Shown here in pieces: positions 19,472 to 63,852 of a DNA stretch of 64,000 nucleotides. Each line of letters starts with the position of its first letter. Position 1 is the stretch's first letter. Source of the stretch: Gammaproteobacteria bacterium (GTDB taxonomy: Bacteria > Pseudomonadota > Gammaproteobacteria > Ga0077536). Under the pieces are notes generated by a model, which was given only the letters and a program-made list of their open reading frames with translations, was not told the DNA's origin and did no database searches. The stretch spans positions 62,001 to 126,000 of the forward strand of contig JACQWY010000014.1 in NCBI GenBank assembly GCA_016209015.1, written 5' to 3'. The position numbers were made by a program, and so were the translations under genes.

Positions 19472-20040
19472 TGAACGGCGCACGGAAGAGAACATTGAGC
19501 CCGGTACTCGTCGGGTGTGTGTTGCTCCTGCCCCTGGCGGGCTGCGTCAGCAAGGACAAGAGCGACCTCGAGAAGTACGTCGAAGACGTCCTGGCGCGCA
19601 AGGGCGGCCAGATCCAGCCGTTGCCGCCCATCAAGCCGTATGAGCGCTACATCTATCAGTCCGCCGAAAAAGGACTGCGCGATCCCTTCCAGTCGTTCCT
19701 GAACGAGGAGCCGAAGAAGGAGACCGTCGAGGCGCCGGCGAACGAATCGCAGAAGCACTTCATCGACGAGATGCAGACCCACAATCCGGAGGAACTGGAG
19801 AGCTTCGAGCTCGACAGCCTGCGCATGGTCGGCATCCTCCAGAACAACGACGAGCTGTGGGGCATCGTCAAGGACAATGCCGGCACCGTGCATCGCGTCC
19901 AGGTCGGCAACTACATGGGCCGCAACTTCGGCAGGATCACGACGATTCAGGAAGACAAGATCGAGCTGCGCGAGATCATCAAGACTCCGCAAGGAAATTA
20001 CGAAGAACGCCAAGCGACCTTGGCCCTGAGTGAACAGTAA
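19468..20040 (+). CDS. pilP: Type IV pilus lipoprotein PilP
   Basis: A 190-aa lipoprotein (lipobox LPLAGC near residue 26) with the PilP periplasmic beta-domain (RMVGILQNNDELWGIVKDNAGTVHRVQVGNYMGRN). It connects PilNO to the secretin PilQ. The linker RDPFQSF matches other PilP proteins. It ends 22 bases before the chosen pilQ start. Confidence 0.95.
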   Translation: MMNGARKRTLSPVLVGCVLLLPLAGCVSKDKSDLEKYVEDVLARKGGQIQPLPPIKPYERYIYQSAEKGLRDPFQSFLNEEPKKETVEAPANESQKHFIDEMQTHNPEELESFELDSLRMVGILQNNDELWGIVKDNAGTVHRVQVGNYMGRNFGRITTIQEDKIELREIIKTPQGNYEERQATLALSEQ

Positions 20041-20062
20041 ACCCAAGCTAGGGGTAAACGAA

Positions 20063-22285
20063 ATGAGAGCTGCGCCAATCACAACCATCCGAAATGAATC
20101 CTCTGCGCGGACCGGGAGTCCGCGCGGCGGATTGCAGGGGCTGCTCGCCGGCTTCGTCGCGATCGCGGCGGGCCTGCTGTCGCAGGCTGCACTGGCGGCG
20201 ACCCTCGAGGACATCAAGTTCACGTCGCTGCCGGGGGATCGGGTGCAAATCGCCCTGAAGCTCTCCGAGCCGATGACGAGTGACCCCCTGAGCTTCACGA
20301 TCGACAACCCGGCGCGCATCGCGCTCGACTTTCCGGGAACCGAGCTCAAGGTCCCCTCCAAGGTCCAGAACATCGGGGTCGGCAAGGCCCAGAGCGTCGT
20401 CGCCGTCGAAGCCGATGGACGAACCCGCGTCGTGGTGAATCTCGCGCAGCTCGTGCCCTACGAAGTGAAGACCGCGGGCAATACGGTCACGGTCACGCTC
20501 GAGGGGAATGCGGCGAACATCTCGGCCGACGTGGTCGCGGGCGCGACTACCTCGCCGTCGCGAGCGACCGCCGCCCCGGGCGCGCCCGCGCCTGCATCGT
20601 CGGCGATGACCATGCCGGGCTCGGCCCGCAACGCGCAGATTCGCGGCGTGGATTTCCGGCGCGGTGCGGCCGGCGAGGCGCAGATCGTCGTCGACCTGTC
20701 CGACCCGAACGTCGGCGTGAACATCCAGGAGCAGGGCGGCAAGATCCTCGTCGACTTCGCAGGGACCGGGCTGCCCGAGCAGTTCGATCGCAAATTGGAC
20801 GTGGTGGATTTCGCGACGCCCGCGAAGGAAGTGGATACCTTCAAGCACGGCAACGGTACGCGCATGGTCGTGACGCCGTCGAATCAGAACTTCGAGCACC
20901 TCGCCTACCAGTCCGAGAACGTTTTCACCCTCGAGCTCAAGCCGCTGACGAAGCAGGAGCAGGAGGCAGCGAAGAAGGAGAAGTTCGGCTACACGGGTGA
21001 GCGGCTCTCGCTCAACTTCCAGAACATCGAGGTTCGGGCGGTGCTGCAGCTCATCGCCGACTTCACGGGCTTCAATCTGGTGGCGAGCGATACCGTCGGC
21101 GGCAACGTCACGCTGCGCCTCAAGAACGTGCCCTGGGACCAGGCGATGGATTTGATCCTGAAGACCAAAGGCCTCGGCATGCGCAAGACAGGCAATGTCG
21201 TGATGGTGGCCCCGCAGGAAGAAATCGCCCAGCGCGAAAAACTCGAGCTCGAGGCACAGAAGCAGCTCCAGGAGCTCGCGCCGCTGCGCACGGAGTTCCT
21301 GCAGATCAACTATGCGAAGGCATCCGACATCGCCGCATTGATCAAAGCCGACGCGAACCGCCTCCTCTCCGAGCGAGGTAACGTGACCGTCGACGCCCGT
21401 ACGAACACCCTCCTGATTCAGGACACCGCGGAGAATCTGACCGAAATCCGCAAGATCGTCACGGCCCTCGACATTCCGGTTCGCCAGGTGCTCATCGAGT
21501 CGCGCATCGTGGTGGCGAGCGAGGACTTCAGCAAGGATCTCGGCGTGAAGTTCGGCTACAGCCAGAACAGCAACATCAAGAACCTGCAACTCGACGCGAA
21601 CGGCGAAGGCGGCTTCAACAGCGTCATCGGCGGCGCGCAGGCTGGCGACGTCAAGTACCCCGGAACGACCACGTTCCACACGGACGGCAAGGAAAACTAC
21701 ATCGTCAGCCTGCCGGTCGCGAACCCCGCCGGGGCGCTCAAGTGGTCGATCGGCAAGATCGGCAGCTATCTGCTGCAGCTCGAGCTGTCGGCCCTGCAGT
21801 CCGAGGGCAAGGGCGAAATCATCGCGAGCCCGCACGTCATCACCGCGAATCAGAAGGAAGCGCTCATCGAGTCCGGCACGGAAATCCCGTATCAGCAGGC
21901 GACTTCGAGCGGTGCGACTTCAGTGTCGTTCAAGAAGGCGGTGCTGAGCCTCAAGGTGACGCCGCACATCACACCGGACGATCGCATCATCATGGACCTC
22001 TCGGTGAACCGCGACGCCGTGGGCCAGATCTTCGCCGGCGTGCCGAGCGTGGACACGAACGAGGTCGACACCCAGGTGCTCGTCGACAACGGCGAGACGG
22101 TCGTGCTCGGCGGCATTTACAGCTCCTCGACACGCGACGCGGTGAACAAGGTGCCGTTCTTCGGCGACCTGCCCTACCTGAACCACCTGTTCAAGAACAC
22201 GCACACGGAAGCGAAGAAACAGGAGCTTCTCGTCTTCGTGACGCCGAAGATCCTGAAAGAGACGTTCACGCTGTCCGCGCGCTGA
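20063..22285 (+). CDS. pilQ: Type IV pilus secretin PilQ
   Basis: A secretin of about 740 aa forming the outer-membrane pore for the pilus. It has a signal peptide (to about ALAATLED), two N-terminal AMIN domains that bind peptidoglycan, an STN/N0 domain (ISLNFQNIEVRAVLQLIADFTGFN type), an N1/NolW domain, and the C-terminal secretin domain. The last carries the family signature VPFFGDLPYLNHLFKN. ATG 20063 is preferred over an in-frame GTG at 20030 inside pilP, because it has AGGGG upstream. A strong terminator follows. Confidence 0.95.
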   Translation: MRAAPITTIRNESSARTGSPRGGLQGLLAGFVAIAAGLLSQAALAATLEDIKFTSLPGDRVQIALKLSEPMTSDPLSFTIDNPARIALDFPGTELKVPSKVQNIGVGKAQSVVAVEADGRTRVVVNLAQLVPYEVKTAGNTVTVTLEGNAANISADVVAGATTSPSRATAAPGAPAPASSAMTMPGSARNAQIRGVDFRRGAAGEAQIVVDLSDPNVGVNIQEQGGKILVDFAGTGLPEQFDRKLDVVDFATPAKEVDTFKHGNGTRMVVTPSNQNFEHLAYQSENVFTLELKPLTKQEQEAAKKEKFGYTGERLSLNFQNIEVRAVLQLIADFTGFNLVASDTVGGNVTLRLKNVPWDQAMDLILKTKGLGMRKTGNVVMVAPQEEIAQREKLELEAQKQLQELAPLRTEFLQINYAKASDIAALIKADANRLLSERGNVTVDARTNTLLIQDTAENLTEIRKIVTALDIPVRQVLIESRIVVASEDFSKDLGVKFGYSQNSNIKNLQLDANGEGGFNSVIGGAQAGDVKYPGTTTFHTDGKENYIVSLPVANPAGALKWSIGKIGSYLLQLELSALQSEGKGEIIASPHVITANQKEALIESGTEIPYQQATSSGATSVSFKKAVLSLKVTPHITPDDRIIMDLSVNRDAVGQIFAGVPSVDTNEVDTQVLVDNGETVVLGGIYSSSTRDAVNKVPFFGDLPYLNHLFKNTHTEAKKQELLVFVTPKILKETFTLSAR

Positions 22286-22307: not shown

Positions 22308-22337
22308 ACGCGGGGCCCCGGCCCCGCGTTTTTTTTT
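22308..22337 (+). terminator. Rho-independent terminator of the pil operon
   Basis: ACGCGGGGCC (22308-22317) pairs perfectly with GGCCCCGCGT (22320-22329), followed by a run of nine T residues. It lies 22 bases after the pilQ stop and should separate pil transcription from aroK. Confidence 0.85.
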
Positions 22338-22553
22338 GCTCTTCTCCGAACTGCGGGGCTGTTCCTCGGCACACCGCAGCGCGTATTTCCCACGTGTCGC
22401 CCTCGCGCAGGCGAGGGCCCATTCGTTCAGCCTCGGCGCCGAGGTCGAACCGCGGGCCCAGCGCAGAAGACGAGCGCGGTGCGGACCGGAGGTCGCGAAC
22501 GTCCGTCAGCCGAGGCGGAGTGCATCGACTGACCCCTCAGTCTGGAGAAGAAC
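22338..22553. repeat. 216-bp intergenic palindromic repeat element, copy A
   Basis: The ends form imperfect terminal inverted repeats: GCTCTTCTCCGAACTGCGG at the left and its near complement ending GTCTGGAGAAGAAC at 22553, with 17 of 21 positions matching. Inside is a perfect hairpin GCCCTCGC/GCGAGGGC (22399-22418). After it comes a module (from 22427) shared with the cluster at 63.4-63.8 kb, and then a segment CAGCCGAGGCGGAGTGC also found there. It contains no protein-coding gene. It looks like a non-autonomous REP/MITE-type element inserted between pilQ and aroK. Confidence 0.7.
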
Positions 22554-22616
22554 CTTTTTTTTGCGCCGGGCGCAGCGAGCTGGAACAATCTGCGGGAGGT
22601 CCCGGAGATCCCCGAC

Positions 22617-23132
22617 ATGTCGAAAAGCACGCGCCTCTTCCTCGTCGGCCCGATGGGCGCCGGGAAGACCACGGTGGGCCGCCGGCTCGCCAAGAGCCTC
22701 CATCGCAAGTTCCTCGATGCCGACCACGAGCTCGAACGGCGCACCGGGGTGAAGATCCCCGTCATTTTCGAAATCGAAGGTGAAGCGGGATTCAGGGCCC
22801 GCGAGAAGCGCCTCATCGCCGAGCTGACGGAGCTCGACGACGTCGTGCTCGCGACGGGCGGCGGCGCAATCCTCGATCCCGAAAGCCGTCAGACGCTCGC
22901 GGGCCGGGGTTTCGTGGTCTACCTGCATGCACCGATTGCGAAACTGCTCGCGCGCACGCGCTCCGACACGAACCGGCCGCTGCTGCGTACTGCGGATCCC
23001 GAAACCCGAATGCGCGAGCTGATCGCACAGCGTGAGCCCCTCTATCGCGAGGTCGCGGATTTGATCATCGACACCGGGGCACTTACATTGGGCGACATCG
23101 TCAAAACGATATTGAACGAAGCCGCCGCATGA
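22617..23132 (+). CDS. aroK: Shikimate kinase
   Basis: A 171-aa P-loop kinase phosphorylating shikimate at O3. It has Walker [12 protein letters not shown] (residues ~10-20), the shikimate-binding Asp in [24 protein letters not shown], and the lid with R in TNRPLL. Its position directly before aroB is the standard gammaproteobacterial order. It overlaps aroB by 4 nt. Confidence 0.97.
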
Positions 23133-63078: not shown

Positions 63079-63105
63079 GAGGCCGCACCAGCGGCCTCTT
63101 TTTTT
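63079..63105 (+). terminator. Rho-independent terminator of the DUF1329 gene
   Basis: GAGGCCGC (63079-63086), loop ACCA, GCGGCCTC (63091-63098), then seven T residues. It lies 61 bases after the stop. Confidence 0.85.
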
Positions 63106-63154
63106 GGTCACCGGCGTGCGGGCTCGATCGACGCATGCCGCCTGGCTGATACCC

Positions 63155-63185
63155 GTCGCCCTCGCGCCTGGCAGGCGAGGGCGAC
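63155..63185. repeat. REP-type palindrome, copy B
   Basis: GTCGCCCTCGC (63155-63165) and GCGAGGGCGAC (63175-63185) are perfect 11-bp inverted arms, the same core as in the element after pilQ. It is isolated from the rest of the module. Confidence 0.65.
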
Positions 63186-63305
63186 GAGTTGGGAAGGGGG
63201 CGCGGCTCGGTACGTCGATGACCCGTCTCCGCGGTTCGATTGAGAAGCTCTTCGTCCCGAGCCGATCTCTCCTGCACTCGGTGCAACAGTCGATCGCCCG
63301 CGTAA

Positions 63306-63594
63306 AATTTCGGGGACACGACACTTGGTTCCCGGCACCTGTCGCCCTCGCGCAGGCGAGGGCCCATTCGGTGACCCCCGGCATCTGCAGTGAACTTCGG
63401 TCTGTCGAGTGCTCAGCGCCGCGCTGGTATGCTGCGCCGGCCCCGCGGTTCGACCTCGACGCCGGGGCTGAACGACTGGGCCCTCGCCTGCGCGAGGGCG
63501 ACGAGCGGGCGGGGCCACGACACTCAATTTCGGGAGTGGCGCGGTTTCGACATGCGCGCTCGGTCGCGAAATTTAATGTCGTGTCCCCGAAATT
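63306..63594. repeat. Inverted pair of an 18-bp repeat enclosing REP palindromes C and D
   Basis: AATTTCGGGGACACGACA at 63306-63323 recurs as its exact complement at 63577-63594. Between them lie two copies of the GCCCTCGC/GCGAGGGC hairpin in opposite orientations (63344-63363 and 63480-63499) and an inverted partial copy of the module seen after pilQ (63427-63474). Sequences of the form GTGTCCCCGRAATT commonly flank REP-associated tyrosine transposase elements; no transposase remains here. Confidence 0.6.
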
Positions 63595-63599
63595 CCCAG

Positions 63600-63824
63600 T
63601 CGTTCAGCCCCGGCGCCGAGGTCGAACCGCGGGCCCAGCGCAGTAAACGAGCGCGGTCCGGAACGGAGCGCTCGAAAGCCCGAGGTTCACTGCGCGTGCC
63701 GTCGGTCACCGACTGGGCCCTCGCCTGCGCGAGGGCGACAGGCATCAGCCGAGGCGGAGTGCGTCGAATGGCCCCGCCGTCTGGAGAAGAACTTCTTTCT
63801 TTGGGCTCTTCTTCAGACTGCGAG
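63600..63824. repeat. Intergenic palindromic repeat element, copy E
   Basis: It shares with copy A (22338-22553) the GGCGCCGAGGTCGAACCGCG module, the GCCCTCGC/GCGAGGGC hairpin (63717-63736, opposite orientation), the CAGCCGAGGCGGAGTGC stretch, and the GTCTGGAGAAGAAC end (63779-63792). A facing GCTCTTCTTCAGACTGCGAG (63805-63824) makes a hairpin with that end. There is no coding gene inside. Confidence 0.6.
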
Positions 63825-63852
63825 GTCGCTGGGGAAATTTTTTCCCGCGACC
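63824..63852 (-). terminator. Strong hairpin after the leftward partial gene
   Basis: GGTCGC/GCGACC outer and GGGAAA/TTTCCC inner stems (63824-63852), 6 bases beyond the stop of the leftward gene at 63859. There is no T-run after it, so terminator function is uncertain. Confidence 0.35.

Follow-up and report, generated by a model that had tools for sequence, protein, structure and literature searches.

Several described repeat families resemble the sequence found here between pilQ and aroK. ISL3-family ISs and MITEs share with it the GGYTCTTC...GYGGG ends, an 8-bp AT-rich duplication and terminal inverted repeats (TIRs) of ~22 bp; for one of these ISs, ISArsp7 from Arthrobacter, the available extract of PMC6305408 gives an IR beginning GGCTCTTCGCGG and an 8-bp DR. 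Unlike ISL3-family ISs, our element lacks a transposase gene, has an interior unrelated to the ISL3 gene and yielded no parental IS in the collections searched. The Correia elements, MITEs of Neisseria, are likewise gene-less, dispersed and located among other repeats, with TIRs of similar length, but according to the extract of PMC3898611 they measure 100-155 bp, with 26-bp repeats and a TA duplication, against 280 bp and 8 bp here. The same extract describes dRS3/NIME as short conserved palindromes bounding spacers of 30-160 bp, at several hundred sites and in arrays. The inner module of our element has this very layout, and arrays in G005 (L204-L209), a genome of the same family, combine CCGTCACCCTCGCGAAAGCGAGGGTCCA hairpins with the published dRS3 palindrome ATTCCC(N8)GGGAAT (extract of PMC3898611). 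However, that core is absent from the inner module of our element, whose own arms read CCCTCGC...GCGAGGG, and in most readable cases the module lies inside a TIR shell. REP/BIME/REPIN repeats with their RAYT also place inverted hairpin pairs in intergenic DNA, but our element has TIRs and an 8-bp duplication, and the RAYT of its genome pairs with another repeat. Finally, SPRITE, BOX and RUP of Streptococcus pneumoniae are small repeats of intergenic DNA, found in clusters and inserted one into another; in the extract of PMC10969869 SPRITE is itself terminator-like, whereas our element, of different sequence, lands on an existing terminator.

The window, that is, the whole 64,000-nt stretch of DNA analysed, corresponds to C36:62001-126000 of a 5.7-Mb genome in 65 contigs. 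With a probability of roughly 0.8, the sequence between pilQ and aroK is a copy, decayed and with an internal deletion, of an ISL3-type MITE that lands mostly on terminators and carries conserved inner arms.

Results

A dispersed 280-bp unit

A preliminary description had placed between pilQ and aroK a 216-bp element with inverted ends and a central perfect hairpin, directly abutting the T-run of the pil terminator. Both structures are real: the inverted ends pair over 19 nt (22340-22358 with 22533-22551, 84% complementary), and the hairpin at 22399-22418 has a perfect 8-bp stem and a 4-nt loop. The contact with the T-run was also borne out (Table 1), and the proposed extent, 22338-22553, was nearly right, other copies shifting the ends to 22337-22554 (218 bp). 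As aligned by nhmmer, the window copy consists of unit positions 2-169 (22338-22505) and 232-279 (22506-22553), and the missing 62 bp of the unit include the second inner arm.

Table 1. Features of the pilQ-aroK locus and of the second cluster in the window
Feature	Position	Strand	Basis or remark
pilQ-like secretin, upstream gene	20030..22285	+	ORF; Pfam Secretin, AMIN, STN, Secretin_N
pil operon intrinsic terminator	22308..22337	+	10-bp perfect stem 22308-22329, then T9
Left target-site duplication TTTTTTTT	22329..22336	+	
Element, 218-bp internally deleted copy of the 280-bp MITE	22337..22554	+	nhmmer match, alignment
Left TIR	22337..22358	+	consensus GGCTCTTC; first G is T in the window copy
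Inner conserved arm with perfect hairpin GCCCTCGC-GCAG-GCGAGGGC	22396..22425	+	
Internal deletion junction, unit 169 / unit 232	22505..22506	.	nhmmer, alignment
Right TIR GGTTCTTCTCCAGACTGAGGGG (as read on the minus strand)	22533..22554	-	
Right target-site duplication TTTTTTTT	22555..22562	+	
aroK (shikimate kinase), downstream gene	22617..23132	+	ORF; Pfam SKI
Inner module (two arms) without TIR shell	63338..63508	-	unit 54-229 only; arms 63341, 63480-63502
Second MITE copy, right part retained (unit 82-279)	63595..63792	+	left side cut by REP-like inverted pair

The consensus unit, taken from a profile built on 26 full copies, is 280 bp long (GGTTCTTCTCC...GGAGAAGAACC) and ends in 22-bp TIRs. 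This profile had 119 matches in 304 kb of the same genome, a sample chosen around copies and not random DNA, with both ends present in 39 of them, one in 57 and neither in 23. Genome-wide, the strict TIR pattern occurs at 133 sites, as compared with none for the reversed control, and a DNA search uncovered at least 190 matching pieces (40 of 230 candidate regions scored). Chance origin of the structure seen in the window is thus excluded. The repeat is short, non-coding and dispersed in many copies bounded by TIRs; the abundance anticipated in the preliminary description is therefore evident, contrary to its refuting condition that no more copies exist, and copy number together with unit structure supports its proposal of a non-autonomous, MITE-type mobile element. 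Mean identity among the 66 longer copies is 0.84, indicating that the family is not fresh.

The modules announced 41 kb away are present at 63108-63792. They belong to a cluster (63099-63843) behind another terminator that comprises a MITE fragment, a shell-less module, a pair of REP-like inverted repeats and a truncated MITE copy. The 280-bp unit found no match in plasmid and phage collections. TIR pattern matches in one Stahlbacteria, one Streptomyces and one viral contig lacked a partner end and are put down to chance, as probably is an orphan match at C16:9795, in ordinary gene context.

Target duplications, arrays and empty sites

Flanks of the 39 both-ended copies revealed an 8-bp target-site duplication. 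The left/right match peaks at exactly this length, with a mean of 4.41 matching positions of 8 against 2.98 expected, a value reached by none of 5000 permutations, many of the duplications being imperfect; exact examples are TATTTTCA (C57:268940) and TTTTTCGT (C11:40544). The A+T fraction is 0.67-0.92 in precisely the 8 bp on either side and mostly 0.2-0.45 beyond. Copies in tandem are spaced mostly by 8 bp (range 7-10), and array members are mostly closest to copies elsewhere in the genome, which argues that arrays grew mainly by repeated insertion; some neighbours, in C5 and C37, are mutually closest.

The preliminary description had suggested comparing empty sites in related strains. Searching the PilQ end in 25 genomes gave 18 matches, and the AroK motif was found in 12 of these 18 loci, our own included. 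In seven same-family relatives (L175, L177, L178, L179, L181, L182 and L183) the PilQ match lies 130-267 nt from the AroK motif, as opposed to 366 nt in our genome, where the distance minus the element and one octamer would be 140 nt. The terminator or T-run leads directly into a short AroK leader in L178, L179, L181 and L182, as exemplified by G013 (GCGGGAGCCTGGCTCCCGC-TTTTTTTT-GCCGGAGC), while L175, L177, our own L173 and the doubtful L183 were judged by the distance to the AroK motif only. At this family level, the comparison supports insertion at pilQ-aroK into a site that is empty in relatives.

ISL3-type ends and the search for a transposase

The MITE end reads GGYTCTTC-N8-GYGGG. ISL3 elements of the family relatives G008 and G009 have ends of the form GGCTCTTC-N10-RTGGG and 8-bp AT-rich duplications, both being represented by intact elements (G008, GGCTCTTCGCGTAATCGAATGGG, duplication GATATTTC; G009, GGCTCTTCAGGAAAATTTGTGGG, duplication CGAAAAAC). 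A third ISL3 element, in G045, has one end visible (GGCTCTTCCCCTGATCTAGTGGG). GGYTCTTC followed downstream by GTGGG is thus common to the MITE, the elements of G008 and G009 and the G045 end, and the octamer also matches ISArsp7, although the spacer between both motifs is 8 nt in the MITE and 10 nt in the ISs of the relatives. The 8-bp duplication, too, is that of ISL3-type elements.

No ISL3 transposase was found in the genome of the window, its sole PF01610 match being the tail of a DesA desaturase. This domain is known to be shared with the desaturase tail, and the PF01610 matches of our genome and of ULC165bin1 were rejected as transposases since they lie in desaturase frames, our own being named DesA_fam_desat. 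Such desaturases (L031, 697-1872; L172, 1471-2655) are false friends in transposase searches. PF01610 is matched in 46 of 58 related genomes, mostly by desaturase tails as judged from score and position; a few of the 58 have real ISL3 genes, the transposase having been checked for G008. In G398 we observed 11 short PF01610 matches, many of them C-terminal ISL3 transposase fragments of 44-46 aa, of which several lie where contigs end; they may mark a MITE of ISL3 origin that has retained part of the transposase gene.

Nor did our genome, where 100 of the 133 TIR sites were placed and the other 33 are weak (2 mismatches), yield an autonomous element sharing the TIR; not every MITE, however, need have such a parent. 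The ends at C10:10 and C65:86567 continue into REP repeats rather than a transposase gene. A single one-mismatch TIR match turned up in one of the 368 other genomes searched from the class, and among GTDB r220 representatives matching elements occurred in just one MAG, with a different interior and no autonomous parent. From the likeness of the ends, we infer past mobilisation by an ISL3 transposase; with none found in its own genome, the MITE family is now probably stranded.

Association with intrinsic terminators

A terminator was called when a stem of at least 6 bp abutted an A/T-rich octamer; this stem-based test replaced a loose hairpin-energy cut-off, dropped for letting through 966 of 1500 random sites. 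In all, the copies represent 75 insertion loci, of which 66 have at least one readable end and 22 have both. Fourteen of the 22 two-sided loci, and 28 of the 66 with any readable end, are on an intrinsic terminator, the remaining 8 and 38, respectively, showing no recognised one. Among octamers with at least six A, read outward, those with a stem number 26 of 30 at element ends and 14 of 68 in the controls (Fisher p = 7e-10), an enrichment in which preferences for hairpins and for long T-runs are inseparable because the controls in the same DNA include a single octamer with at least seven A, long T-runs being almost absent elsewhere in the sample.

Among the T/A runs of at least 7 nt in the window, that at 22329 and its duplicate at 22555 are occupied, that at 63099 directly precedes the degraded cluster and that at 2192 is free. 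The latter, an A8 run (2192-2199), sits beside a terminator-like minus-strand hairpin without an element. The Lysobacteraceae MAG ULC165bin1 (L136-L139, L141, L164-L171) has a fold-back family of its own, which is shorter and shares the TIR but not the interior; terminator-like T-runs are present at most of the eight pattern sites of this second family. The literature searched, including the available parts of PMC9208149 and PMC2267715, contained no description of MITEs that ISL3-type ends direct to terminators.

Conserved inner arms

The unit contains two inverted 30-bp arms, at about unit positions 60-89 and 197-226, one of which is the central hairpin of the preliminary description. Across 32 full copies the arms diverge from the consensus at 1.4% and 1.9% of sites, versus 12% and 8% for the TIRs and 8-12% elsewhere (arms against the rest, Mann-Whitney p = 2.6e-14). 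Comparison of 94 matches likewise gave arm identities of 0.92-0.99 whatever the state of the rest, although diverged copies were partly found through their conserved arms, which biases this comparison and, less so, that of the 32 copies. The rest had fallen to 0.71 in the six most decayed copies, with the arms still at 0.92, and one such diverged copy retains 60/60 arm positions against 114/161 for the rest. The 26-base arm, with up to 3 mismatches, occurs at 217 sites in the genome and at none in the reversed control. One of 39 relatives, G005, has it, at 6 sites; the exact arm is absent from viral contigs, short partial matches in plasmid and phage collections were judged chance, and no phage using the arms was found in phage collections or viral contigs.

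Arms also occur outside complete units. Where the flanks were long enough to tell (71 arm pairs), both TIRs accompany 33 pairs and a single TIR 23, while 15 have no TIR; several of these 15 match the profile from arm to arm only, which indicates that the inner module exists on its own too. Within the unit there would also be an older module with a 30-bp hairpin arm at each end, and it is these arms rather than the TIRs that are conserved. Selection, conversion between copies or a site-specific recombinase could each account for the conservation of the arms. That they are functional host sites (for a nucleoid protein, gyrase or mRNA 3'-ends; cf. BIMEs), kept by selection and with the MITE shell as their vehicle, is a tentative reading. 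It draws on the low divergence of the arms, their persistence at 92% or more where the rest stands at ~71% and the 217 genomic sites, but gene conversion or site-specific recombination could homogenise them as well, and the function proposed is a candidate one, suggested by sequence conservation. More doubtful still is the full scenario in which over 200 arms would be selected, putatively functional palindromes parked behind terminators by a terminator-seeking and now extinct transposon.

Relation to REP repeats and structured RNAs

The preliminary description had called the element REP/MITE-type and suggested looking for a RAYT-like Y1 transposase gene with matching ends. The genome does contain five Y1-transposase (Y1_Tnp) genes, and, like REPINs, the element has inverted hairpins in pairs, its inner arms, which also occur without TIRs. 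However, the Y1 gene at C39:223612 (228 aa; REP_Tyr_transpos 77.2 bits, cut-off 80) goes with another repeat, GTGTCGTGTCCCC, ten sites of which lie within the 3.3 kb around it, and not with the hairpin of the element; no Y1 gene flanked by the element's own palindromes was found. The other four Y1 loci lack exact GTGTCGTGTCCCC, element hairpin and TIR within ~1.5 kb, and the sole trace of the element at all five is a partial copy downstream of the C39:223612 RAYT. REPs are not known to make 8-bp duplications or to have 22-bp TIRs, both of which the element shows. Thus, the MITE part of the earlier assignment stands, but movement as a REP by RAYT does not fit its TIRs, duplication and ISL3-family ends, and it is improbable that the element is a REPIN, with hairpins moved by one of the genome's Y1 tyrosine transposases. 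The locus around C39:223612 (L033, G000 C39:222112-225444; ORF 1471-2157) is a complete REP/RAYT locus distinct from the MITE, and a GTGTCGTGTCCCC repeat is nested in the degraded second copy of the window (63511-63588).

The 280-nt consensus is predicted to fold back nearly completely (-185.8 kcal/mol, z = -10.3 versus shuffles), the window copy retaining z = -3.2. That the pilQ-aroK interval holds the gene of a structured non-coding RNA, or an attenuator, as this strong fold and the T-run beyond the right end might suggest, can nonetheless be set aside as very improbable: Rfam searches of the locus and window gave tRNAs alone above threshold and 13 sub-threshold matches, a chance level, covariation is scarce (term 1.04; two-sided changes in 6 of 68 pairs), and the element is absent from the locus in relatives and has copies at unrelated places.

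Discussion

A 280-bp gene-less unit with 22-bp TIRs is spread genome-wide, flanked by 8-bp AT-rich duplications and with orthologous empty sites. Of the two readings, ISL3-type MITE and REP/RAYT element, the former fits best because the intact ISL3 ISs of relatives have the same end pattern and 8-bp AT-rich duplications. Overall, this MITE of ISL3 type tends to sit at terminators and has, nested within it, a palindromic module that is over-conserved.

In the mechanism that we propose, an ISL3-family DDE transposase acting in trans would cut at the GGYTCTTC ends and insert the unit into AT-rich octamers. Long T-runs in a genome of 67% G+C would nearly all be terminator tails, so that most copies would come to lie directly behind an intrinsic terminator. 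At pilQ the target would have been the T-run of the terminator itself; since the octamer is duplicated on insertion, the terminator would keep its T-run and the host gene would be spared. Each inserted copy would also leave a further AT-rich octamer on its distal flank, open to another copy, which would explain head-to-tail arrays with mostly 8-bp spacers and mostly non-sister members.

The family is a clear natural example, documented with orthologous empty sites, of transposons without genes that settle mostly downstream of terminators. It illustrates that an element may reach high copy number in a compact genome while doing almost no harm, and that tandem arrays can build up via repeated insertion at one octamer; its over-conserved arms make it testable whether such repeats are maintained by selection for a host function or by recombination.
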